A DNA stretch of 60,892 bases from IMG/VR virus record IMGVR_UViG_3300046777_001724, positions 1 to 60,892 of that record; one strand, 5' to 3'. This document shows positions 1,429 to 60,667 of the stretch, in pieces. The position numbers were made by a program, and so were the translations under genes. The first letter of the stretch is position 1. Each line of letters begins with the position of its first letter. A model generated the notes under the pieces. The model was not told the DNA's origin, did no database searches, and saw only the letters and a list, made by a program, of their open reading frames with translations. The stretch is from a virus.

Positions 1429-3279
1429 CTAAAACATTCTTCTTGGTATTCTAGTAGAAGATCTATTCTTAGAAAATCCAGATGGCTTTATTGCAGAAGC
1501 TCTACCAGTAATTACCATTTTGGATTCACTTTCATCCTCTGTAACAGTTTTCTTGTTTGGCATAAAGAAAGAATTAGAGAAGGATTCTGTATTAGTGGCG
1601 TAAGACACCTTTGACAGTTCACCATAATTTTGTGTTATAGCGAGAAGAGCCAACATCAGTGCATCATGCGCATGATCCATTGCTGATCCTGCAGCTTCGA
1701 AAACAGGCCTACCTGTTTGAGTTGTTCTAACTACGACGTATGATATTAGTTGTAGATAAAGTTCTTCATCGTTTTCTGGAAAAAGTATATTTTCTCTTTC
1801 TAAAAACTGCCTTAAGTTATCTACCATAAAAGGTTTCATTTCTTTTTTTACAAACATTTTTGTATAAGGATCTCTTATGTCTAATGTTTCAGCAAAAGAA
1901 ACACCTTTTACTTTTTCTTTTAGACCGCTTCTTGGATCTTCTATTCCCTTTTTGTGTAATAGCTCTACTTGAACTTCTCCAAAGCCTCTGTCTACATATA
2001 TGTGTCTAGGATTAAAAATCGAATTAAGATCAACTATTCTGTCTACTGCTTTAGTTAAAGTGTATTCAGATCTTATTATTTCTTCTCTGTATATAACTCT
2101 TGTTTTATTTCTAAATCTTGCGTCTTCGTAATTTTCTGCACAAGCTTCAACTACAACAATGTTTGTTCCTGCACCATATTTGTCCCAGTCAACACCTATT
2201 GTAAAAAAGCTTCTAGCTGATGTTATTTCTGGTTCATAGTTCCATGATGGAGATACAAATGCTCTATCAACATACTTTCTTGGATAAACGCCTTCTGAAT
2301 CCTCTCCCCAGTCAGCCTCTATTTCATGTCTATATCCAGATTCTGAATATTGTTCCCTAAATTCATCTTCTTGATCTTTAGAAAAGTATGGGTTGCAATA
2401 AGATGGGAACCAAAACTCTCTAAACCTATTACTGTTGCACCATTCCCAAAAGCGTTCTCTTCTACCAGTTGGGGTTGATGCTCCCATTAACACTTTATCT
2501 GGTTGATCTTCTGCTGTTTTTTGAAGCATTGCATATAGTGCGTCTAGGTCGTCCGCATGCATGTAGTCCATTTCGTCAAGAATAATCAGATGTGCTTCCT
2601 GACCACGAGCTACGTCTGATTTTCCACCAGATCTCATACCTGACGTAAAGAATCTAATGGTTGATCCATTAGAGAATTGAATCATAAATTGTGGACTTGT
2701 TACTTTTCTCGTAATAGAATTCATGACTATATCATTTTTAGATGCAATTCTAATTATTTCTTGATATATCAATTCTACTTGAGTTTTCATAGGTGCAATA
2801 ACTAGACACCTGCCATCTTTATGTGTATAGCTATAATGCAAAAGATTAATAGCCATAGTAAATGTTTTACCTAAACGACGACCAGCTCTTAGAACTTTAC
2901 GAAGAGATGGGTGTCTAAGTATCATTATTTGATATACTCTTGGTTCTGCCCCAAGGAAATTCTTAGCCCATGTAACAGGGTCTTTAGCTATATGAATTTG
3001 CCTTTGTTGCTCTGCAGTTACGCCAAGACTTAATAGATCTTTATCTAGCTCAAATGGTTCATCTATTAGAAGGGCTAATTCTTCATTTGTAAAATCTCTA
3101 CTTAAAACAGGAGTGCCATCATTCCAGTTTAAGTGTTCAAGTTTATTTCTAAAAACCCATTCAATTCTATTTACTTGCTTTAATAATTCTGGGTCTTGAT
3201 CTTTTAATATATCTAATATGTCTTCCCTTGGAAGCTCAGATATTTTTTGTCTAAATTCTTTAGTTTTATCTATTATCAT
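1429..3279 (-). CDS. terL: Terminase large subunit (packaging ATPase/nuclease)
   Basis: 616 aa, a normal length for TerL. The N-terminal ATPase half shows the terminase Walker A variant RAGRRLGKT (about residues 131-139), Walker B LIILDEMD (about 232-239) and a following STPTGRR coupling motif. The C-terminal RNase H-like nuclease half shows the three acidic clusters: IGVDWDKYG, YVDRGFGE and DHAHDALMLAL. TerL drives DNA into the procapsid through the portal and cuts the concatemer. It is read in the same direction as the structural genes and ends 8 nt before the next gene. It lies 2 nt behind the upstream Gly/Ala-rich gene. Confident by motif content. Confidence 0.95.
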   Translation of the reverse strand: MIIDKTKEFRQKISELPREDILDILKDQDPELLKQVNRIEWVFRNKLEHLNWNDGTPVLSRDFTNEELALLIDEPFELDKDLLSLGVTAEQQRQIHIAKDPVTWAKNFLGAEPRVYQIMILRHPSLRKVLRAGRRLGKTFTMAINLLHYSYTHKDGRCLVIAPMKTQVELIYQEIIRIASKNDIVMNSITRKVTSPQFMIQFSNGSTIRFFTSGMRSGGKSDVARGQEAHLIILDEMDYMHADDLDALYAMLQKTAEDQPDKVLMGASTPTGRRERFWEWCNSNRFREFWFPSYCNPYFSKDQEDEFREQYSESGYRHEIEADWGEDSEGVYPRKYVDRAFVSPSWNYEPEITSARSFFTIGVDWDKYGAGTNIVVVEACAENYEDARFRNKTRVIYREEIIRSEYTLTKAVDRIVDLNSIFNPRHIYVDRGFGEVQVELLHKKGIEDPRSGLKEKVKGVSFAETLDIRDPYTKMFVKKEMKPFMVDNLRQFLERENILFPENDEELYLQLISYVVVRTTQTGRPVFEAAGSAMDHAHDALMLALLAITQNYGELSKVSYATNTESFSNSFFMPNKKTVTEDESESKMVITGRASAIKPSGFSKNRSSTRIPRRMF

Positions 3280-10754: not shown

Positions 10755-11939
10755 TTAATCTTCAACTACCTTAAGTTTTCTTGCTGGTTTTGACACTTTT
10801 AGATTAAATATATTATCTTTATAAGTAAAAATAAACACTGTACCTTTAGGCATGTGAGACATAACTATTGATTTTGCAATCTTTGTTTCTATCTGCTCTC
10901 TTCTAATTTGAGAAAGGCCTCTTGCACCTTTGATCGTATCTATACCATTGTCAATTAAGCCATTGATAACGCTTTCATCGTATTCTATAGAATAACCTTT
11001 TTTGATCATCTTTTCAGAAATGATGTCCATTTCTAATTCTGCTATTTTTTCGCAGTCTTGTCTATTCAAATGGTTAAATACAACAATTTTATCGAGTCTA
11101 TTGATCAACTCTGGTTTAAAGTATTTTCTTATAGCATCGAGTGTATTTTTTTCCACCATTTGTCTTGGAGGTGTAATCGTGGTTGATGTTGAGTAATTAA
11201 CATTTCTATTAAAGCCTGCACCAGTTCCTATGAGATTGTCTACTGTCTTATCGTTTCCTAAATTCGTAGTCATAACTATTACAGTATCCCTAAAGTCAAT
11301 TTTGTCACCCTTGCCATCAGTTACAAAACCCTCGTCAAAAATAGACAAGAATGTATTCCATATGTCAGGATGAGCTTTTTCCACTTCGTCGATCAATACT
11401 ACTGAGTGCGGATGCTTTTTAATTTGATTAACTAGCTGACCACCCTCATCGTGACCCACATACCCTGGAGGAGAACCTATTAATTTTTGGTTTTCATGTT
11501 TATGTTGAAACTCTCCACAGTCTATGCGAACCATTGGATAATCTTCAGCAAAAAGGTAGTTGTGTAAGGTTGAAGCAAGATGTGTTTTTCCGACGCCAGA
11601 AGAGCCTGCAAAAAGAAATACGCCTAATGGTCGCCCATCGTCATTTAAACCCGCCTGAGAGCGTAGGAGAGCTGCACAGATAGAATCTACTGCCTCATCC
11701 TGACCTATAATATTTGATTTCAAATGATGTTCAAGGCCCAGATACTTTTGCTTGGATATTTTTTTAGTATTAGGCTTCTTCTTTTGGTTCTTGTCTGAAG
11801 CTGATGCTCTATCCTTTGCTTTTGATATAAGCTTTTGTATCTCACTAAAATTTAAATCATCATCCATGTCTTGATTGCCAGGAGCTGATGCATATGCAAT
11901 TGCTACCCAGTAATCTATGTCCAATCCAGGATTCAACAT
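10755..11939 (-). CDS. Clp-type AAA+ ATPase (single ClpA/ClpB D2-like module)
   Basis: 394 aa as drawn. From about residue 70 the protein matches the class I Clp second ATPase module: GQDEAV, Walker A GSSGVGKT, pore loop GYVGHDEGG, Walker B VVLIDEVEK, sensor 1 VMTTNLG, and the C-terminal GARGL sensor 2. It lacks the N domain, the first ATPase module and the ClpB coiled-coil M domain, so it is not a host ClpB copy. The residues before the AAA+ core are Lys-rich linker. It probably remodels or disassembles a protein complex during morphogenesis. The first 30 residues overlap the upstream frame; the two frames join across CGGA (11946-11949), giving a likely fusion of about 470 aa. Confidence 0.85.
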   Translation of the reverse strand: MLNPGLDIDYWVAIAYASAPGNQDMDDDLNFSEIQKLISKAKDRASASDKNQKKKPNTKKISKQKYLGLEHHLKSNIIGQDEAVDSICAALLRSQAGLNDDGRPLGVFLFAGSSGVGKTHLASTLHNYLFAEDYPMVRIDCGEFQHKHENQKLIGSPPGYVGHDEGGQLVNQIKKHPHSVVLIDEVEKAHPDIWNTFLSIFDEGFVTDGKGDKIDFRDTVIVMTTNLGNDKTVDNLIGTGAGFNRNVNYSTSTTITPPRQMVEKNTLDAIRKYFKPELINRLDKIVVFNHLNRQDCEKIAELEMDIISEKMIKKGYSIEYDESVINGLIDNGIDTIKGARGLSQIRREQIETKIAKSIVMSHMPKGTVFIFTYKDNIFNLKVSKPARKLKVVED

Positions 11940-50631: not shown

Positions 50632-50916
50632 ATGAACATTGAACAAATCTTCCAAGAAGAATTACAATCCTATAATAATATTCAATCTAATTTAGATTCA
50701 TTAGTATTAGAATTTAAAGATACTTATGCTAAGTATGAAGATATAAAGAATACCTTTAGGTCTACTGTTTCTTCTCGTACTTTTTCTCATAAAGATTTAA
50801 CTACTCTTTTAGAAAAGCATATTGCTGTTGTTACTCAGATTAATGACATTAATAGATCTATTGCTGATGTTTTTAAGTTAATTCAAAATCGCATAGATAC
50901 AGAAGGTTCCAATTGA
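50632..50916 (+). CDS. Coiled-coil protein
   Basis: 94 aa from ATG 50632, 5 nt after the tRNA-like element. Heptad-rich throughout (IFQEELQSYNNIQSNLDSLV; ITQINDIN-type C-terminal helix). Overlaps the WhiB-like start by 4 nt. Confidence 0.7.
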   Translation: MNIEQIFQEELQSYNNIQSNLDSLVLEFKDTYAKYEDIKNTFRSTVSSRTFSHKDLTTLLEKHIAVVTQINDINRSIADVFKLIQNRIDTEGSN

Positions 50917-51260
50917 GACTTACTCCAAAGACAGAAGATTGGCGTGCAGACGCAGCTTGTTTCCAAGAAGATCCTAATATATTCTTTCCACTAAAAACTA
51001 CTTATCAATCTGTTCAGGCAGCTTTTGCATTTTGTAAAACTTGTCCTGTTAAAATAGATTGTCTTCATTTGTCTGTAGTTTATGGTTATGAAGGTATATG
51101 GGGTCACTCTACTTTTGGTCAGAGACTTCATGTTTTAAAAGAACATTTTAATAACGATAATACTAACTTTACAATACAGGACGCTAAAAGAATGTATGCT
51201 GAAATAAATAATGTTTCAGTTAAGATTCGTCCAAATAGACGCAGAAAAAAAGAGTCTTAA
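50913..51260 (+). CDS. WhiB-family transcription regulator
   Basis: 115 aa from TTG 50913 (overlapping the preceding TGA). WhiB pattern: first Cys in DAACFQED, then CKTCPVKIDC, giving four Cys for a [4Fe-4S] cluster, followed by GIWGHSTFGQR (WhiB G-x-W-G turn) and a basic C-terminal tail (RPNRRRKKES). WhiB proteins are confined to actinobacteria and their phages, and bind sigma factor region 4. It probably redirects host transcription. Confidence 0.92.
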   Translation: MRLTPKTEDWRADAACFQEDPNIFFPLKTTYQSVQAAFAFCKTCPVKIDCLHLSVVYGYEGIWGHSTFGQRLHVLKEHFNNDNTNFTIQDAKRMYAEINNVSVKIRPNRRRKKES

Positions 51261-51278
51261 TTACAAATAGGATATAAT

Positions 51279-52049
51279 ATGACAACTCAGCCATACAGAA
51301 ATGATGATGATGATCTCTTTGATTATGATCCATCTAAAGAACAAACTTCAAACTATAGTCAAGACTATTTAACTTCTTCTACACAAAATAATAACTCTAA
51401 AGATAATTCTCTTCTTGATGATATCTATCGTCAGATGGATAATCTAGTTCATTCTGATGGAGAGGAAGCTGTCAATGAATTCCGGATTCGTCTTTCTGAT
51501 TCATTAAATGAAGCTTACTCTCAGTACTTATCTAAGTCTTCTGTAGTCTCTCATGTTCAGGCTGTTACAATTACTTTAGATGAAGTCACTAATGGTAGAT
51601 TTTCTGAACTTTATCTTCTCAAAAATCTTGAACAAAATATTTTTCGTAGAATAAATATACACTTTTTATTGAACGCTATCATTGATGATGGTGGCGAAAA
51701 CAATATTAGTTTTAAAGATTTCTTGGCTAAAGTAAATATATCTATTTCTGATGATTTTATTCCTGTTTACTTTTTGACTTTACTAAATATTTCTAGTCAT
51801 ACATTAGATCTTGAAAGAGCTATGTATATGGATCTTTCTCAGAGACTAGGTATTACTCCTAATCCTTTAGCTATTCATTCTGATCCAACACCAAAAGAAA
51901 TTTCTAATGCAGTACCACTTACTGCTAGTCAGTTTAGAGATTCTATTTATAATTCTGTTTATGAAAAGATTTCTTCTACTCAGGAATACACTGATTCTAT
52001 AAAGAATATTTTTGTTGCAGACAGCGTTATAAAAATATCTAAGATATGA
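51279..52049 (+). CDS. Unknown acidic protein
   Basis: 256 aa. N-terminal 45 residues are low-complexity acidic/Ser/Asn-rich; the rest is helical with no motif. ATGA overlap with the following membrane protease gene. Confidence 0.7.
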   Translation: MTTQPYRNDDDDLFDYDPSKEQTSNYSQDYLTSSTQNNNSKDNSLLDDIYRQMDNLVHSDGEEAVNEFRIRLSDSLNEAYSQYLSKSSVVSHVQAVTITLDEVTNGRFSELYLLKNLEQNIFRRINIHFLLNAIIDDGGENNISFKDFLAKVNISISDDFIPVYFLTLLNISSHTLDLERAMYMDLSQRLGITPNPLAIHSDPTPKEISNAVPLTASQFRDSIYNSVYEKISSTQEYTDSIKNIFVADSVIKISKI

Positions 52050-52498
52050 AAAATAAACTTACAGAGTTTATAATTCTGTCTGGTACAGTTCTTGCATTAG
52101 CAGCTATAAACTATAGTATTATTCATACTCCTTTTATATTTATAGTTCTTTTGATTATGTTAGTACATGAGTTCGGTCACTATTTTGCTGCTAAGTTTCA
52201 AAATGGAGATCCTCAACTTCCATATTTCATACCTATTCCTTTTGTACCTATAGGTATTACAAGAGTTAGAAGAATGAAGTTTCTTTCTTTTAAATCAAAA
52301 AAAAATATAGTTCTATTTGGTCCCATTCTTGCATCTTTTACTTCTTTTATTCTTTATCTTTTTTCTTTATCTTTTTATCCACATTACTCTCTCTCTCTTT
52401 TACTTTTAACAATTGGCGAACTTCTTTTTAACTTTATTGGTTTTGACGGTAAAAAGTATAGACATTATTCTAAGCAGGAAAAAGTATCATGCATTTAA
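52046..52498 (+). CDS. Membrane metalloprotease, M50-like (site-2 protease type)
   Basis: 150 aa. Membrane helices surround the zinc-binding HEFGH (LVHEFGHYFAAKF) and a later NFIGFDGKKY that could provide the third zinc ligand Asp, as in M50 proteases. FGPILASF is typical of the fold too. It is shorter than usual for M50 (about 200-350 aa), with four predicted helices. May cleave membrane-bound regulators or signal peptides. Confidence 0.7.
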   Translation: MKNKLTEFIILSGTVLALAAINYSIIHTPFIFIVLLIMLVHEFGHYFAAKFQNGDPQLPYFIPIPFVPIGITRVRRMKFLSFKSKKNIVLFGPILASFTSFILYLFSLSFYPHYSLSLLLLTIGELLFNFIGFDGKKYRHYSKQEKVSCI

Positions 52499-52873: not shown

Positions 52874-53245
52874 ATGACCGACTCTGACGGAATTAAATCT
52901 TTTAGATTTTCTTTTGATATGGCTTCTAAAAGCAAGTCAAACATTCAGAACGAAGTTCAAAATTTAAAAGATAGAATTGATAAGATTATCGATCACTTTA
53001 CAGTGAATGATATGCCCATTCTTAGACTCATACTAAATGTTACTGAAGAACATGATGACTTGAAAAAATTATCTAAAGCCCTAGATCGCTTGGCTGATTT
53101 GACTGGTCACTACAATAGTTTAGTAAGAAAACTAAATGTTATAGAACAAGCTGAATCAGATCCAAATTGGTTTGCTTTGGCTTTTGGCGATTTTCAACAG
53201 GATGTTGAAGACGGCATAAATAAATTTTTTACAACAGACAATTAA
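52874..53245 (+). CDS. Helical protein, unknown
   Basis: 123 aa, strongly helical and charged (NEVQNLKDRIDKIIDHFTV; LKKLSKALDRLADLTGHYN). Probably coiled coil. Two nt after the previous gene; 17 nt upstream of the ubiquitin-like operon. Confidence 0.7.
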   Translation: MTDSDGIKSFRFSFDMASKSKSNIQNEVQNLKDRIDKIIDHFTVNDMPILRLILNVTEEHDDLKKLSKALDRLADLTGHYNSLVRKLNVIEQAESDPNWFALAFGDFQQDVEDGINKFFTTDN

Positions 53246-53262
53246 TATAATATAGAGGAAAT

Positions 53263-55227
53263 ATGTCTACCGATAAAGTAACTTATACTTTTGTTAAAGA
53301 GGAAGGCAATATTTTATTTCGGTCTAAAGTAAATTCATTTAACTTAGACCACGTAACAGATAAGAATATTGTATCTTTCTATCAGAACTTTTCAAACTAT
53401 GCTGCCATGGACACTGGTTTACTACCTGTCGATGGTACTGGTTTGTTGGCCATAAGATCAGCTGGCAATCACACTCAAGTAGCATATCAGTATAAGCCTG
53501 GTATGTACTACGTTAACTGGGGTGCTTCAGAAGGTGATCCTAACGCAGTAAGTTACTTGGTCGCTCAGCCATATAGAATTGTTATTATTGATTTTGTTGA
53601 TAATAATTTACTTGGTGCTAGAACATTTTATTCTCCTATTCCAGCTACTCATCCAGGTATTCAGCTTTACCATGTAAACCTCCCTAACATTAACTGTAGA
53701 GGTTATCGTGGAAATGGTGTTGGTTGGATTTGTTTGTATCATAATCAAGATTGGTCTAAGATGCCGTTTAATGAACGGTTGGCTAGAGCTCTTGAACGTT
53801 GTTCTGGCATTGAAGTTTACAACGATGCAAACATGTCTGAAACAGATGGACCTCGTTTCTATGCTTCTAAGTCTAAGCCTTCTTATATTACTAATCCTCG
53901 TGAGTGGGAAGATAAATCTCAAGCCGAAGGATTTGAGTGGACCATTGATGAAAATCTTTGGATACCAATTATGGTCAAGAGTAGAGACGAACAAGGTCAG
54001 CACTACGATGGAGAAGGTTCAGTTCCACTGACACTTGGCGATGCTATTGTAGGTAAGTACAACGCATACTATAATGATTCATATCATCCAAAGCCTATTA
54101 ATGCACTGACTAATCCTGATCTTGAACTTGATCCTAAGACAGTTACTTCTTGGTTTGTTAAGTCTTATAATGATTCTTCTACATCATTTGTTGGTATTGA
54201 TCCATTTTTACAGTCTCAACAGACTAGACAAAATATAGCTAATACTCAGCTTACTCCTCAGAGTTTAAAAACTTCTTCTGATGTTCCTGATAGTGAAAAC
54301 ACTGTACAATGTACTTCTTGTGAAGATCTTTATGATGAAGATGATGTAGTGGAACATTCAGATGAATACTGGTGTACTGATTGTTTCAATGAAACATTTG
54401 TTCATTGTGAAAATACTGATGAGTACTTACATCAAAGTGATGATAACCTTTATTATAATGAGCACGATTCAGAATATTATGACCTCGGTGGCTTTAAGAA
54501 CTACAGCACCTGTTCAAACTGTAGTGCTTTACATTACGTAAGTCATACTGACTTTATTCTCTATCATTCAAAAACATCTCATTGGGATCCTAATATTTGG
54601 ATGGTTCAAGCTGAAGATGGTACTAAGATTGAACTCTGTTCAGAATGTATAGCTGATGAAGATATAGCAGGTGTTTCTACTATGAATTGTGAAACTTGTT
54701 CTTGTACCATTCCTCAGTCTTCTATTAATCATTCTTTCTCTATACCTACTTTGGCTGACGAATACAATATTATTGGTTCTAATAATATTTGTTCTACCTG
54801 TTCCTCTAAACAGTATTCTAAGAAGATGTCCATTACTGGTACAGCTTTTTATGAGTACGATATAGTTAAAGTTTTAAATCCTAAATCTTATATCGTAGAT
54901 GAATCTAATTTTTCTGCAGCTTATATTGCTATAACAGATTATATGAAATCTAACGATATGGATATACATGATCAGTATTATGTTCAAATTACTGATGCTC
55001 CATCAGTAGCATGTGATCTTGTACCCGCTTGGGAAATACAAGATCAGTATAATAATGATGATTCTTTTAATCCTCCTATTACACCAAATGGCGATGGCTA
55101 TTATAGATTAATCAAAACATCGGTGTCTTCTGCACTTGACGATAACCTTCAACATAATGGAGTGTTATTCGGTAAGCTTATAGAAAATCACGCTGTCACA
55201 CTTACACCATACAATGAACCATTCTAA
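53263..55227 (+). CDS. E2-like (PRTRC-B-like) protein with zinc-ribbon C-terminal region
   Basis: 654 aa. Residues about 100-165 (PYRIVIIDF, GARTFYSPIP, GIQLYHVNLPNINCRG, GVGWICLYHNQ) follow the order of the E2-like proteins of bacterial ubiquitin-like systems, in which PxLY-x-x-PLPN precedes a G-x-x-C; Cys157 would be the active-site residue. From residue 345 on there are at least four zinc-ribbon-like Cys pairs (CTSCEDL, CTDC, CSNC, CSEC, CETC, CSTC), an architecture that could bind targets. First gene of the conjugation operon, start behind GAGGAAAT. E2 function is inferred from order and context. Confidence 0.6.
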   Translation: MSTDKVTYTFVKEEGNILFRSKVNSFNLDHVTDKNIVSFYQNFSNYAAMDTGLLPVDGTGLLAIRSAGNHTQVAYQYKPGMYYVNWGASEGDPNAVSYLVAQPYRIVIIDFVDNNLLGARTFYSPIPATHPGIQLYHVNLPNINCRGYRGNGVGWICLYHNQDWSKMPFNERLARALERCSGIEVYNDANMSETDGPRFYASKSKPSYITNPREWEDKSQAEGFEWTIDENLWIPIMVKSRDEQGQHYDGEGSVPLTLGDAIVGKYNAYYNDSYHPKPINALTNPDLELDPKTVTSWFVKSYNDSSTSFVGIDPFLQSQQTRQNIANTQLTPQSLKTSSDVPDSENTVQCTSCEDLYDEDDVVEHSDEYWCTDCFNETFVHCENTDEYLHQSDDNLYYNEHDSEYYDLGGFKNYSTCSNCSALHYVSHTDFILYHSKTSHWDPNIWMVQAEDGTKIELCSECIADEDIAGVSTMNCETCSCTIPQSSINHSFSIPTLADEYNIIGSNNICSTCSSKQYSKKMSITGTAFYEYDIVKVLNPKSYIVDESNFSAAYIAITDYMKSNDMDIHDQYYVQITDAPSVACDLVPAWEIQDQYNNDDSFNPPITPNGDGYYRLIKTSVSSALDDNLQHNGVLFGKLIENHAVTLTPYNEPF

Positions 55228-55235
55228 GGAAACAT

Positions 55236-56936
55236 ATGTCACAAGATAATATAACATTGGACGACTTGAATTATTTTTGGATGCCTAACGGTGCTCCATG
55301 CTTTATTGCAGATAATGATTCTATATTTGAAATAGTTGAATCTATTGGTTTTGGTATTTATTATTTGTTTAGCAATGAACAAAAAATAACAACAAGCACT
55401 GCAACCAGCTACAAGCCTACTACTCCTGGGGCTGTAACATCCACACCTACCACTACTACAACTCAAACTATTAAGAATACTCCTAAATTGTTTAAAGTTG
55501 TTTCTAACTTTGTTGGTAGAAGTGTTACCATTTCTGAAGATCCGCTTCCTGATAATTTTGTTCCACTTGAAGAAAGCTGCGAATACGCACTTCCTTTTAT
55601 TCCATATTCTATGGTTGAAAAGCTTGATCAATTCTTTAGACTTGTTCACGCTAAGCATGGCACCGAGTCAATCGTATTACTTACTTTTGATCAGACCAAA
55701 GAAGGCTCTGATGGTTGGGGCATCTTAGTCCCAAGTCAAGTGAATACAGCTGCACATTGTCACTATGATGCCGAAAGCATTTTGGACATTAAACCAGAAG
55801 ATGCTATTATTGTTGGTTCTGTTCACAGCCATCCTGATATGCCAGCTTATGCTTCTGGTACTGACCATGCGGACCAGGCTGATTTTGATGGTATCCATAT
55901 TACTTTTGGATGGCAGAAATCAGTAAACAATGGAGCAACCCAGTATCATATGGAGCTTCAGATGTCTGGAAAGAATTATAAACTCGATCCAGAAGATGTT
56001 TTTGAAAGTTTTACTATTGACAAGGACCCTGATCCAGAAGTTGTACAATGGAGTGAACAAGTAAAAAAAGCATTCCCCCCAGTACAGGGGGGACATACGG
56101 CACATACTCCAGCTACCGATCAAACAGCGTATCAGATGACAAATGGTACGGCGGATACAACGCTTGGCTTTAGAAATTCTTTCTACAAAGAAAACATTAC
56201 TCTACTTCATGTAGAACCAGACGCTGTTGTCATAGCTGAAGTATATCAGCAAAGTGACGGCACTGCCGTATGTCCTTCTTGTAATTTCGATCTTGATTCT
56301 GCAGACTTCTATAGTGGATATTGTCAGATCTGTGATATACCTATTGCACTTGAATCTACGTCAATTAACATGATAGGTTCTGCTGTTCAGAAATATCGCA
56401 AAGTTCGCAATCTTCCAACAGACACAAATGTTTATCTTTGGGCTAGAGATAATCAGGGTGAAGAGTTCTTGATAAATATTAATATGGACAAAGCTTTATC
56501 TGGAACTTTTTATGAAGACGATGATTTTGATAAAGGTAAAATACCAGTAAATCACACTGGTTATGATGATACTTATCCTTTAGAAGATAATTATGATTTT
56601 GATCCTAATAGACTTGTATGCTGTGGTGAACTAGCTCAAGAATATGTTGATCGTTGTATGTGCCCTACAACAATATTCTACACAGACTTTAAAGCCTTTG
56701 ATGAAGAAACAACTAGAGTCAGTCTTTACGAAGCTGGATCTAAATGCCAAGAGTGCCTGCACTATTGGACACCTCAGTGTCCTGGATTAAAATCTATGAT
56801 AGGCGAGTATATTGATTCTGGCTATGATTCTAAGATTATTGAAACTATGGTTCAAATGTCCAGCTGTGATGAATACGTTCCGTATGAATCCATAAGTTCG
56901 GATTATTTGTATGAGAACGAAAGATATTATAACTAA
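55236..56936 (+). CDS. JAMM/MPN-domain isopeptidase (ubiquitin-like deconjugation/processing)
   Basis: 566 aa. The central domain carries a full JAMM zinc motif: E144, then HSHPDMPAYASGTD with H197, H199, S207 and D210. In bacterial ubiquitin-like systems such JAB proteases trim the modifier or remove it from targets. N-terminal 80 residues include a Thr-rich linker. The C-terminal part has two Cys-pair motifs (CPSCNFD, CQICD) and CQECLHYW, probably zinc ribbons. Ends at TAATG, coupled to the E1-like gene. Confidence 0.88.
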   Translation: MSQDNITLDDLNYFWMPNGAPCFIADNDSIFEIVESIGFGIYYLFSNEQKITTSTATSYKPTTPGAVTSTPTTTTTQTIKNTPKLFKVVSNFVGRSVTISEDPLPDNFVPLEESCEYALPFIPYSMVEKLDQFFRLVHAKHGTESIVLLTFDQTKEGSDGWGILVPSQVNTAAHCHYDAESILDIKPEDAIIVGSVHSHPDMPAYASGTDHADQADFDGIHITFGWQKSVNNGATQYHMELQMSGKNYKLDPEDVFESFTIDKDPDPEVVQWSEQVKKAFPPVQGGHTAHTPATDQTAYQMTNGTADTTLGFRNSFYKENITLLHVEPDAVVIAEVYQQSDGTAVCPSCNFDLDSADFYSGYCQICDIPIALESTSINMIGSAVQKYRKVRNLPTDTNVYLWARDNQGEEFLININMDKALSGTFYEDDDFDKGKIPVNHTGYDDTYPLEDNYDFDPNRLVCCGELAQEYVDRCMCPTTIFYTDFKAFDEETTRVSLYEAGSKCQECLHYWTPQCPGLKSMIGEYIDSGYDSKIIETMVQMSSCDEYVPYESISSDYLYENERYYN

Positions 56937-57700
56937 TGACTACAGAGACTAAAAGATTTGTACTGGTTGGCGCTGGCGGAATTGGAAACTGGCTTGCAGC
57001 TGGTTTAGTTAGACTTCTTGAATGGAAGTTTCCTGGTTCTGGTTTAATTATTGTCGATGGCGATAATTATGAAGAAAAGAATCGGGAACGTCAAGAGTTT
57101 ACTAAGATTGGAAATAAAGCAGTAGTCAAGGCTCATGAACTGATTCCTCAGTTCCCCAACACTGTTATTATTCCACTCGCTAAGTGGGTTGTATCTGACG
57201 ATTTTTCTGGAGTTTCTTCTGATGAAGATGCTCCAAAAATTCCAGCATCTCAACTTATTAATGAAAACGATGTTGTCTTTGCAGTAGTTGATAACTTTGC
57301 TGCTCGTAAAATTATCTTTGATGCTGCATCTAAACTTAACAACGTTGATGTTTTTACCGGTGGTAATGATGATGAACTCTTCGGATCAATCTATCATTAT
57401 CAGCGTCGTGAAGGAAAGGATGTTACTGAACATCCAGTTCACTTCCACCCAGAGTATGATAATCCACCAGACAAAAATCCCGGTGAACTATCATGTCAAG
57501 AACGTTCTGAAATAGAAGGTGGCACTCAGCTACTAGCTACCAATATGGCTGTTGCAGCTTTTATTTTGGGACGTGTTCAGAAAACAATAGTGCTAGGTCA
57601 AAATCCCGACGAGACGGAGATATACTTTGACTTAGGTCTTGGCAAATCTGAACCGTATAACAGAACAGTATCTGAAAACAATCACTACACTACAGTATAA
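56936..57700 (+). CDS. ThiF/E1-like ubiquitin-activating enzyme
   Basis: 254 aa. Rossmann GAGGIGNWL at residues 12-20, the E1 catalytic block DGDNYEEKNRERQEF (nucleotide and magnesium binding, Arg finger), AVVDNFAARKII, and a candidate thioester Cys187 in GELSCQER, followed by a helix typical of ThiF-family C-termini. It lacks the second Rossmann module of eukaryotic E1, as do ThiF and PRTRC-ThiF. It should adenylate the C-terminal Gly of the ubiquitin-like protein encoded next. Confidence 0.92.
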   Translation: MTTETKRFVLVGAGGIGNWLAAGLVRLLEWKFPGSGLIIVDGDNYEEKNRERQEFTKIGNKAVVKAHELIPQFPNTVIIPLAKWVVSDDFSGVSSDEDAPKIPASQLINENDVVFAVVDNFAARKIIFDAASKLNNVDVFTGGNDDELFGSIYHYQRREGKDVTEHPVHFHPEYDNPPDKNPGELSCQERSEIEGGTQLLATNMAVAAFILGRVQKTIVLGQNPDETEIYFDLGLGKSEPYNRTVSENNHYTTV

Positions 57701-57708
57701 GGATAATC

Positions 57709-57960
57709 ATGGAAACTAATATGAATTCATCTTCATCTGCTCAATCGAGCGGTATGGCTAATGTTCGCTTTGGTGTTTATAACCAGCCAAGCAACATCGG
57801 AGGAAAGAGCATCAAAGACGCTCGTGAGCAGTTCAGCAAACTGTGGGGAATTCCTACAGACGCAGTTGCTTACAAGGGTAAAGAAAAGCTCGACGAGAAT
57901 TATGTTATTCAGCCAGGCGACAACGTGGAGTTCCACCGTCGTGCCGGCGAAAAGGGCTGA
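57709..57960 (+). CDS. Ubiquitin-like beta-grasp protein (PRTRC-C/MoaD-like)
   Basis: 83 aa. A Ser-rich N-terminal extension precedes a beta-grasp domain (NVRFGVYNQPSNIGGKSIKD, AVAYKGKEKLDENYVIQPGD, NVEFHRRAGEKG). The VxPGDxVEF strand and C-terminal GEKG with terminal Gly fit ubiquitin-like proteins of bacterial E1/JAB operons. If the terminal Gly is used directly, no trimming is needed; the JAMM protein might then only deconjugate. Start behind ATAAGGATAATC. Higher GC than its neighbours. Confidence 0.85.
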   Translation: METNMNSSSSAQSSGMANVRFGVYNQPSNIGGKSIKDAREQFSKLWGIPTDAVAYKGKEKLDENYVIQPGDNVEFHRRAGEKG

Positions 57961-57979
57961 GCACCTGAATGACTAAGGT

Positions 57980-58022
57980 CGTGGGGGAGCATTACTCTAT
58001 ATAGGGTGTGCTCCCCCACACT
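57980..58022 (+). terminator. Strong hairpin between the ubiquitin-like gene and the AAA+ gene
   Basis: GTGGGGGAGCA/TGTGCTCCCCCAC with an AT-rich loop. It is followed by ACTAAC and an A-run rather than a U-run on the plus strand, so it may attenuate, or block minus-strand transcription. Confidence 0.6.
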
Positions 58023-58070
58023 AACAAAAAAAAATTTACAAAGGCACCAGCCTATATACGGAGTATTATA

Positions 58071-59669
58071 ATGCTATTCAATTATTTAAAGTTGGGTTAT
58101 CCATCTTTATGGCTTAAGACCAAAGAACCTTATCGATCAGTAGAGTCTGTTCTTAATTATGATTTTAGAACATATTTTACAATTACTCCGGATACAGGTT
58201 TTTCACAGTATATTGATGGTACTTGGAAATCTGTTCTCGTAGATATTCCATTGCCAGAGGGTGGAACTAAATTATCAGTTATCTATGATGTTAGTGTTGC
58301 ATGGCACTGGTTGACAACAAATAAATTTGATAATCCAATTACTTTCATAGTTTCTATTTTGGGTAAGCCTGATCAGATTATTCCAGTCTATGCCCCCATT
58401 GCTTCTTCTCTAAACGCTAAGTACAGAGATGTATTTTGGTCTGATAATATAGATAGTTCTTTAATTCAACTTCTTTTTGTTTCTTCTTTTGATGCTCCAG
58501 AAGAATTTGCCGGCTTGTTTAAGCATGTTGAATTTTCTATACCTGATTCAAAAGAATTATCAACCATTGTTTCTCATATATCTGATTCTTCTGATGGAAG
58601 ATTTGTTCAGGAAGATGAAGTTAAAGATATAGTTCGTGCAGGCATTGGTCTTACTGAGTCTGACTTTATAGATCTTTGTCTTCAATCAATTGTTACTTCT
58701 AATAAAATAGATCATAAGTTTATTTATGATTCTAAGATGAAGCACATCAAGGATTCTGGTATCCTTGAAATTATTAAACCAAATATTACTTTTGATGATA
58801 TTGGTGGTTTGGATAATATCAAAGACCTAATCAAGCGCACTGCTTTTCTTTGGCAGAATAAAGAACAAGCAAAAGAATTTGGTATTACACCAATTCGTAG
58901 AGTTCTGATGGTTGGTATTCCTGGTACTGGCAAGTCAGCAATCTGTCAAGCTACTGCAGCTGAACTTGGTCTTGACCTTGCACGCACTGGTGTAAGTCAA
59001 GTTATGAATTCTTTTATTGGTCAATCAGAGCAGAACATGCGAGCTGTTTTTCAACAGATTAAAATGATGACTCCGCTTTGTGTTTGGATTGACGAATTTG
59101 GTAGAGACATGTCTGGTGGTCAATCTTCTGGACATGTTGATGGTGGCACTACTGATCGTGTCCATGGTGAGTTTCTTACTGGCCTACAAGAGCTTCCTGA
59201 GGACACCTTCCTTATGTGTGCTGCCAATCAGCTTGATCACCTAAAGCCAGAAATGCTACGTGCTGATCGCTTTGATAAGATTGTCTTTGTTGGTATGCCT
59301 TCTTTTGAAGAGCGTATGGATATCTTTAGAATTTACCTTGAGCCAATTAAAACAGATCATAAGTTTAATTACGAAGCACTAGCTCGTGCAACAGAATGTT
59401 TTACTGGTGCAGAAATTTCTTCTCTTATTAAAGAAGTAAAATTCTATGTTGTCAGCTCTGACTTTAGAGCTATAACAACTGAAGACCTTGTTTCTTATGC
59501 TCCAATGATGCGTAATACTATTTGGAACAAACACAGAGACATGGTAAAATCAATGTATCAGTTTGCATTGGAACAATGGGATTGGGCTTCTTCTTCTCAG
59601 CTTGAAGAAGCTAAATTAGTTATTACCGGAAAAGCTGCAGTATCAGAACAAGTTTCATTTAAAATATAG
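58071..59669 (+). CDS. AAA+ ATPase, Cdc48/Ycf46-like
   Basis: 532 aa from ATG 58071 (CGGAGTATTATA upstream; longer frame from 58008 lacks a site). N-terminal region LGYPSLWLKTKEPYRSVESV resembles Ycf46-type ATPases. AAA+ core: FDDIGGLDNIKDLIK, Walker A GIPGTGKS (282-289), Walker B CVWIDEFGR, sensor/SRH CAANQLDHLKPEMLRADRFD with the arginine finger. It probably remodels or unfolds proteins. Its place directly after the ubiquitin-like gene suggests that it handles tagged substrates, by analogy with Cdc48 and proteasomal ATPases; that link is inference. Confidence 0.9.
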   Translation: MLFNYLKLGYPSLWLKTKEPYRSVESVLNYDFRTYFTITPDTGFSQYIDGTWKSVLVDIPLPEGGTKLSVIYDVSVAWHWLTTNKFDNPITFIVSILGKPDQIIPVYAPIASSLNAKYRDVFWSDNIDSSLIQLLFVSSFDAPEEFAGLFKHVEFSIPDSKELSTIVSHISDSSDGRFVQEDEVKDIVRAGIGLTESDFIDLCLQSIVTSNKIDHKFIYDSKMKHIKDSGILEIIKPNITFDDIGGLDNIKDLIKRTAFLWQNKEQAKEFGITPIRRVLMVGIPGTGKSAICQATAAELGLDLARTGVSQVMNSFIGQSEQNMRAVFQQIKMMTPLCVWIDEFGRDMSGGQSSGHVDGGTTDRVHGEFLTGLQELPEDTFLMCAANQLDHLKPEMLRADRFDKIVFVGMPSFEERMDIFRIYLEPIKTDHKFNYEALARATECFTGAEISSLIKEVKFYVVSSDFRAITTEDLVSYAPMMRNTIWNKHRDMVKSMYQFALEQWDWASSSQLEEAKLVITGKAAVSEQVSFKI

Positions 59670-59678
59670 GAGAATGTA

Positions 59679-60311
59679 ATGTCAGAAGAGTTTCCAGACG
59701 TAGAAGATTTCATCGAAGCTTTTACCAATAGTTCAGAACCTAAAGTCACAACTGAAGAAAAACAGTATGATCAAGATCTTTATAAGAAGTGGTTCAGATC
59801 TAAAACACAAAGCGGATTTTTATCTATTAAGCCATGGTATCAAGGTCTTAAATTTAAGATTGATATTGGTAAGACATCTCCAGATGGCAAGCTATTAAGC
59901 AGCACAATGATATTCGTTGATGCAATAGACTTTGCTGCTTATCTTCAGTCTATTTCCAATGGTACTGGAGCAGTGAATTACCCTGCGAATGATAAGTCAG
60001 GCGTACCAACAGCAGAAGGTTTTGTATCTTATGGTGGTGGAATCATAGAATCCAAGCCTGTCTCTAGAATCTTTAAAGCACACTACTGGCAGAACTCAGA
60101 TAATACATTTGATTCATCTGCTTTTGCTTGGAAGTGCGGTCACTTTGCTGCTAGAAAAACAGAGAGTGGAGCTTTCATTCCTGATATGAAGTCACCACTT
60201 TCTGTTGACTCTATTAAAGTAACTAGACAGGATGTACTAAGTATTTCTTATATGCTAAACTTATCATTAGTTTCTCATGTAACAAATAATTCAGATTGGT
60301 ATAATATATGA
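59679..60311 (+). CDS. Unknown protein downstream of AAA+ ATPase
   Basis: 210 aa, mixed; N-terminal 30 residues acidic and disordered, then a strand-rich domain (GLKFKIDIGKTSPDGKLLSS). Could be a client or partner of the AAA+ ATPase. Start behind ATAGGAGAATGTA. ATGA overlap with the next gene. Confidence 0.7.
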   Translation: MSEEFPDVEDFIEAFTNSSEPKVTTEEKQYDQDLYKKWFRSKTQSGFLSIKPWYQGLKFKIDIGKTSPDGKLLSSTMIFVDAIDFAAYLQSISNGTGAVNYPANDKSGVPTAEGFVSYGGGIIESKPVSRIFKAHYWQNSDNTFDSSAFAWKCGHFAARKTESGAFIPDMKSPLSVDSIKVTRQDVLSISYMLNLSLVSHVTNNSDWYNI

Positions 60312-60667
60312 CAGATAAAGAAGTTGACTTTAAAGATATTCTAGAATCTATTTTAGTATCTATCAATGCTCAGACAAATATTAGGTTTTCTGAACTTGAA
60401 GAAAAAATAGAAAAAATAGAACAACAAATAGCAACTCTTACATTAGCATATGGCGAAACAGCAATATTCTTAGAAGCTCTTGTGGGCCAGCTTGCTTTTG
60501 CTTCAGATGATGCTCAAAAAAACTTTCATTCTACTTTATCTGAAAGTAGAAAATCTATGTTAGAGGTAATGCAGAGTGCAGCACAAGGATTCGTGGGTGA
60601 CGATAGTCCAGTCGTTGGAGCAACCCTTAGCGACTTGGCTCAGCAAAAGCTTGCTGAGACAGATTAA
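60308..60667 (+). CDS. Coiled-coil protein, unknown
   Basis: 119 aa. Residues 30-50 form heptads (FSELEEKIEKIEQQIATLTL). The C-terminal part is Ala/Ser/Asp-rich. Coupled by ATGA to the preceding gene. Confidence 0.7.
   Translation: MTDKEVDFKDILESILVSINAQTNIRFSELEEKIEKIEQQIATLTLAYGETAIFLEALVGQLAFASDDAQKNFHSTLSESRKSMLEVMQSAAQGFVGDDSPVVGATLSDLAQQKLAETD

Follow-up and report, generated by a model that had tools for sequence, protein, structure and literature searches.

In bacteria, E1-E2-JAMM-Ubl chemistry resembling that of eukaryotes has been met chiefly in anti-phage defence and in plasmid cassettes whose role is unknown, and a ubiquitin-like (Ubl) tagging kit beside an ATP-driven protein-unfolding machine is otherwise best known from eukaryotic cells. 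Here we ask whether the IMG/VR virus record IMGVR_UViG_3300046777_001724 (60,892 bases, classed as linear and possibly a fragment; its whole length is referred to as the window) encodes such a tagging pathway of its own, and whether the AAA ATPase gene next to it takes part. We report that the five genes in question (E2-like, JAMM, E1/ThiF-like, Ubl and AAA) are real and form part of a strictly conserved block in a phage family, and our data suggest that this block is probably a phage variant of the bacterial E1-E2-JAMM-Ubl systems for reversible protein tagging. Searches of the open-licence literature turned up no description of a phage system like this. If a diverse group of large phages, the attackers, keeps a whole set of this kind without loss and next to an AAA ATPase, ubiquitin-like signalling would have a new arena, one that would also offer a tractable setting for studying how tagging became coupled to unfolding.

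A conserved gene block in a phage family

The block comprises eight genes in the window:

52874-53245, plus strand: 123-aa helical protein, block gene 1; in every complete locus a homologue stands directly ahead of the E2-like gene
53263-55227, plus strand: E2-like protein, 654 aa, with an N-terminal domain (residues ~1-300) and an LPN-x14-C157 motif
55236-56936, plus strand: JAMM/JAB metalloprotease, 566 aa, with a C-terminal cysteine-rich region (Prok-JAB, PRTRC_A)
56936-57700, plus strand: E1/ThiF-like adenylating enzyme, 254 aa, with a single Cys187 (ThiF, PRTRC_ThiF)
57709-57960, plus strand: putative Ubl modifier, 83 aa, with a GEKG end (profile match to PRTRC_C, Pfam Prok_Ub)
58071-59669, plus strand: single-domain AAA ATPase, 532 aa, with its own N-terminal region (AAA, CDC48, phrog_8638)
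59679-60311, plus strand: 210-aa conserved protein, in every complete locus the gene next to AAA on its downstream side
60308-60667, plus strand: 119-aa helical protein, the last conserved gene before the record end

A first-pass annotation of the window had described five consecutive open reading frames (ORFs) as a ubiquitin-like conjugation operon with its own AAA+ ATPase. All five were recovered on the plus strand where it had placed them. For the AAA ORF, an ATG at 58071 (532 aa) is a more likely start than the GTG at 58008, with most relatives starting at the former and a GGAG preceding it.

The block is present in dozens of IMG/VR phage contigs, the largest being 268 kb, and the order 123-aa, E2-like, JAMM, E1, Ubl, AAA, 210-aa and 119-aa is the same in all complete family loci. 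Since this eight-gene order recurs while the relatives' proteins of the five families share 42-82% identity with the window versions, the block is far from a chance arrangement. Searches of viral contigs gave 45 E2-type, 39 E1-type, 42 AAA-type and 44 Ubl-type loci, mostly on shared contigs. Specifically, E1 and Ubl genes were found at 42/42 AAA loci and the AAA gene at 43 of the 44 Ubl loci, the remaining locus running off its contig. In one divergent group (L053, L055, L057 and L058) the JAMM gene is broken into two parts. The E2-to-Ubl portion of the block was found on a 10-kb contig of a bacterial metagenome-assembled genome, a contig that perhaps belongs to a phage and ended up in the bacterial bin. 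Among 50,697 phage records no E1 or E2 relatives were detected at the thresholds used (for E1, E ≤ 0.01).

The putative conjugation proteins

The E1-like and JAMM proteins were recognised directly by hidden Markov model (HMM) searches. The 254-aa protein matched ThiF at 5e-11, over the cut-off, and its best NCBIfam model was PRTRC_ThiF (1.5e-6, 27.8 bits, not reaching the TIGR03736 cut-off of 144.75 bits); the PADLOC E1-E2 models gave only weak E1 matches. Its nucleotide-loop glycines, D41, R52, K61, D119, R124 and C187 are present in 33/33 sequences, and C187, which in most of these is the sole Cys, aligns with the Cys of PRTRC_ThiF. The JAMM protein matched Prok-JAB at 3e-5, just below the curated cut-off, and PRTRC_A at 5e-4 (19.8 bits, not reaching the TIGR03735 cut-off of 101.8 bits). 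E144, H197, S198, H199, S207 and D210 are invariant, and the active-looking motif ExnHSHx7Sx2D is kept, in all 38 JAMM sequences. Both the ThiF/E1-like enzyme and the JAMM peptidase with H197, H199 and D210, as first annotated, are thus borne out.

For comparison with PRTRC we used thirteen annotated plasmid loci together with one locus lacking annotation. In profile-profile comparisons (hhalign; each E-value is that of a single comparison, uncalibrated on a database) the E1 paired with PRTRC_ThiF (8e-15), the JAMM protein with PRTRC_A (4.7e-5) and the Ubl with PRTRC_C (4.8e-4; 1.4e-4 with more sequences, across 72 columns, those of the RAxGxKG end among them), while unrelated pairings gave E-values of 0.019 or worse. 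HMM searches with the PRTRC models gave the ThiF and A matches above, both under the curated cut-offs, but no match for B or C. The rank tests of E2-like and Ubl profiles against the PRTRC loci, and of PRTRC_C against phages, were uninformative. That four of the genes correspond to core PRTRC parts is supported by profile comparison for E1, JAMM and Ubl, whereas the E2-like protein is tied to B only through paralogues (see below).

The window Ubl ends in ...EFHRRAGEKG, and the GEKG is kept in 33/33 Ubls, so that the C-terminal Gly on which the initial interpretation leaned is conserved in the relatives. Five Ubls have two residues past the Gly (SL twice, NI, SK and LA); PRTRC_C likewise ends in RAxGxKG, in some cases with short tails, and these extra residues fit processing by the JAMM protease.

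In the E2-like protein H137, N142, C145 and C157 are invariant in 41/41 sequences. Its C-terminal zinc-ribbon region is variable, with CxxC pairs from residue 350 and none in two versions (L006 and L022); a reading of this part as a RING E3 was unsupported, solely CxxC-type ribbons being present. The 654-aa protein had no significant match in HMM searches. A PRTRC_B profile did, however, pick genes downstream of the block (5e-5 among 8,198 ORFs). These form a tandem pair (for example at L065 13519-16188, and at equivalent places in other relatives) situated 2.4-3.2 kb past the AAA gene in loci with enough flank, and their family matches both PRTRC_B (7e-7) and the E2-like domain of the window (4e-9) by profile comparison, with an Asn and a Cys, both invariant, at the position of the PRTRC_B Cys. 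No paralogue match was found in the window, which stops 1.2 kb after the AAA gene, short of their position.

Structure prediction with AlphaFold2 for residues 1-297, based on 33 sequences, gave a confident model around Cys157 (predicted local distance difference test, pLDDT, 85.3; predicted template modelling score 0.80), superseding an earlier poor model from 7 sequences (pLDDT 51.5). Judged by the order of its elements (helix, strands, Cys loop, helix), the model is compatible with an E2. In the BFVD viral models Foldseek found a close homologue (58% identity), a nameless 241-aa protein (1.8e-10) and a 438-aa protein (7e-7). Nothing useful came from searching PDB sequences with the 654-aa protein or with profiles for E2, E1, Ubl, JAMM and the 210-aa protein.

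The proposed pathway and rival explanations

What is observed is the set of genes, their strict linkage, the invariance of the catalytic residues and the sequence kinship to PRTRC parts. On the strength of these sequence comparisons we consider it rather likely that the block specifies a pathway for reversible conjugation of a ubiquitin-like modifier to proteins, one of the bacterial E1-E2-JAMM-Ubl kind, operating through a thioester relay that we infer. The JAMM protease would trim the Ubl to its terminal Gly where needed; the ThiF-like enzyme would adenylate this Gly and perhaps hold the Ubl on Cys187; the next carrier of the Ubl would be Cys157 in the 654-aa protein or, in relatives, a downstream E2-like paralogue, and from there it would be transferred to target amines, from which the JAMM protease would take it off again. 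Unfolding or extraction of the tagged proteins may be the task of the AAA ATPase.

Several results weigh against the conjugation pathway. The 83-aa Ubl had no significant match in HMM searches, and the profile pairings carry the uncalibrated E-values noted above. Direct profile comparison of the E2-like protein with PRTRC_B was non-significant (E 0.06), so that the link between them appears to be only transitive, through the two paralogues. In the class to which PRTRC belongs (class 6d) a His on the C-terminal side of the E2 Cys is described as absolutely conserved (PMC1779556); H160, just after the Cys, is kept in only 30/41 sequences, and another His, H247 further along, is invariant. Foldseek of the confident model against the PDB gave no match at E ≤ 0.001; PDB sequence searches with the tested PRTRC_B and PRTRC_C proteins gave no relative either, so that the missing fold match counts only weakly against an E2 fold. 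This fold, which we infer for the 654-aa protein, is the main gap of the case: Cys157 and the zinc ribbons of the E2-like protein as first annotated stand, its tie to PRTRC_B runs through paralogues, and no PDB match was found for its modelled N-terminal domain. The 654-aa protein might instead be a binding or scaffold member of the E2 superfamily, with the E1 or the downstream paralogues passing the Ubl to targets, in line with the missing PDB match, the large divergent zinc part and the two other E2-like genes in relatives; the invariance of C157 and N142, typical of a catalytic site, makes this unlikely.

The AAA ATPase matched AAA (7e-23), CDC48 (2e-40) and phrog_8638 (1e-71), and Walker A, Walker B, sensor 1 and the Arg fingers are present in 35/35 AAA sequences. 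The wider family has matches in 144 INPHARED records, among which no E1 relative was found at E ≤ 0.01, and six AAA neighbourhoods inspected in other phages had no E1, JAMM or Ubl relative nearby; the ATPase may therefore have been recruited to the block or be a mere neighbour. That it lies outside the tagging pathway, forming a phage module of its own with the two following genes, is a serious contender to which we give a little under an even chance, and it agrees with these phages in which no E1 was detected and with the divergent group, in which ~2 kb of other genes separates Ubl from AAA while the AAA and 210-aa genes stay joined. On the other hand, no case of AAA and Ubl genes parted from each other was found within the family, with AAA identity down to 44%, and on comparison the genes that follow AAA in the other phages proved unrelated to the 210-aa protein, so that an equivalence between these was dropped. 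Functional coupling of the ATPase to the tagging pathway is accordingly a tentative proposal, somewhat short of even, and the link is perhaps purely positional. The suggestion that the ATPase recalls Cdc48 or proteasome coupling went too far: the ATPase is a single-domain AAA protein of a family that occurs also in phages with no detected E1, with no protease domain, and no HbYX-like C-terminus occurs among the 35 AAA sequences.

A protease of the HslV/proteasome family (~203-209 aa) is encoded in 12/18 large relatives, downstream of the block (for example L212 3077-3688; G275 102976-103584) and, where its position was worked out, 8-9.5 kb past the AAA gene. It matches PF00227 (4e-9 at best) and phrog_1040 'peptidase HslV family' (~1e-22), and its PDB profile matches include BPH and HslV alongside some spurious ones; a Thr follows the first Met, and Asp18 and Lys42 are invariant in the seven sequences aligned. 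On this basis one could speculate, as a quite unlikely extension, that most large relatives have a near-complete ubiquitin-proteasome-like degradation system (Ubl, E1, as many as three E2-like proteins, JAMM, AAA unfoldase and HslV-family protease) remodelling or destroying proteins during infection. However, six of the 18 have no detectable copy, phages with no detected E1 also have the gene (e.g. Actinomycetia phage DSL-LC01, 51% identity), and its presence does not follow that of the window's Clp-like ATPase (listed below), several records holding just one of the two. The protease is therefore only a lead, outside the system described here.

The block might also serve a purpose other than protein tagging. 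A sulphur-carrier pathway (ThiS, MoaD or TtuB-like) thiolating tRNA or a cofactor would accommodate an E1 of the ThiF superfamily, a modifier ending in a single Gly and a phage that carries tRNA genes, but as many as three E2-like proteins whose Cys is invariant, a JAMM protease, and an E1 closest to PRTRC_ThiF rather than ThiF or MoeB make it improbable, and among the block genes neither a sulphurtransferase nor a biosynthetic enzyme was noticed. Host Ubl-based CBASS immunity exists (PMC10097602), and decoy use by a phage is possible, so that a counter-defence device jamming or reversing such immunity (CBASS Cap2/Cap3 or Bil) was considered; we regard this as very improbable for a phage with a whole, self-consistent forward and reverse pathway and its own Ubl, and with merely weak E1 matches in PADLOC.

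Phage setting and comparison with known systems

Other features of the window outside the block are:

1429-3279: terminase, marking the phage origin of the window
10755-11939, minus strand: Clp/HslU-type AAA ATPase (AAA_2 1e-51; phrog_4871 'ATP-dependent protease'), kept in most relatives
50913-51260: WhiB-family gene (Pfam 1.5e-12), slightly upstream of the block and kept in relatives
52046-52498, plus strand: small membrane protein with a HEFGH motif, M50-like metalloprotease (Pfam M50 3.6e-4, below cut-off)

The terminase and the virus record together support the phage origin, and the window also encodes RecA, a helicase and a transglycosylase-domain protein. WhiB was found in 10/10 related virus records, whereas of 14 control genomes Corynebacterium alone had it, so that an actinobacterial host, as first proposed, is likely for the phage family; WhiB and the DSL-LC01 relative prompt freshwater actinobacteria as a guess. 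A homologue of the M50-like gene lies immediately upstream of the block at every checked locus, which is an association only.

AAA ATPases of phrog_8638 in Rhizobium, Rhodobacter and Mycobacterium phages belong to the same family as that of the block (~26-34% identity over up to 87% of the length), but in these phages no E1 relative was found and the neighbours differ (DUF1257, DUF2997 and others). Rhizobium phage RHph_I4 (L011 5983-9305) has the same AAA family with DUF1257 and DUF2997, an arrangement that looks repeated elsewhere; a relationship of the DUF1257 or DUF2997 neighbours to the block was dropped after comparison.

Bil and CBASS Cap2/Cap3 resemble the phage block in their E1, E2 and JAMM chemistry and in their setting of phage-host conflict, and differ in being host defence genes. 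Burkholderia phage BgVeeders33 (OK665841) has an unannotated PRTRC_B homologue (2e-20) near a ThiF-like gene (L204 4959-7238), but, compared by annotation, it is a 33-kb phage with an ordinary PRTRC-like order and no AAA gene. In a different virus group, one cluster (L096 1178-7737) encodes an 879-aa protein with a weak Prok-E2_D match, a JAMM protein, an E1, a second E1-like protein and a Ubl-like protein with a Rho_N/SAP-like N-terminus and a GRKGC end, and adjoins multi-subunit RNA polymerase genes.

The closest known system is the plasmid PRTRC cassette, class 6d of Iyer, Burroughs and Aravind (2006; PMC1779556), who predicted such relays in bacterial operons; in Pfam, PRTRC_B is named 'Prok-E2_D' and PRTRC_C 'Prok_Ub'. 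Both systems have stand-alone Ubl, E2-like, JAMM and ThiF-like genes and a Ubl with the RAxGxKG end, and the phage order E2-JAMM-E1 equals PRTRC B-A-ThiF. The phage block differs in being phage-borne, in having the Ubl gene shifted to after E1, in the zinc-rich regions that enlarge its E2 and JAMM proteins, in the two extra E2-like paralogues of the relatives and in the AAA ATPase that is always adjacent. Its scores are far under the PRTRC cut-offs, ParB (PF02195) was absent from the 10 virus records (control matches in 11/14 genomes), and PRTRC E and F gave no match among the conserved-block proteins, the sole proteins compared; by sequence the block is therefore kin to PRTRC but outside PRTRC as curated. 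The best explanation is a conjugation pathway that shares its stock with the PRTRC systems and was reshaped in a phage family probably infecting actinobacteria.

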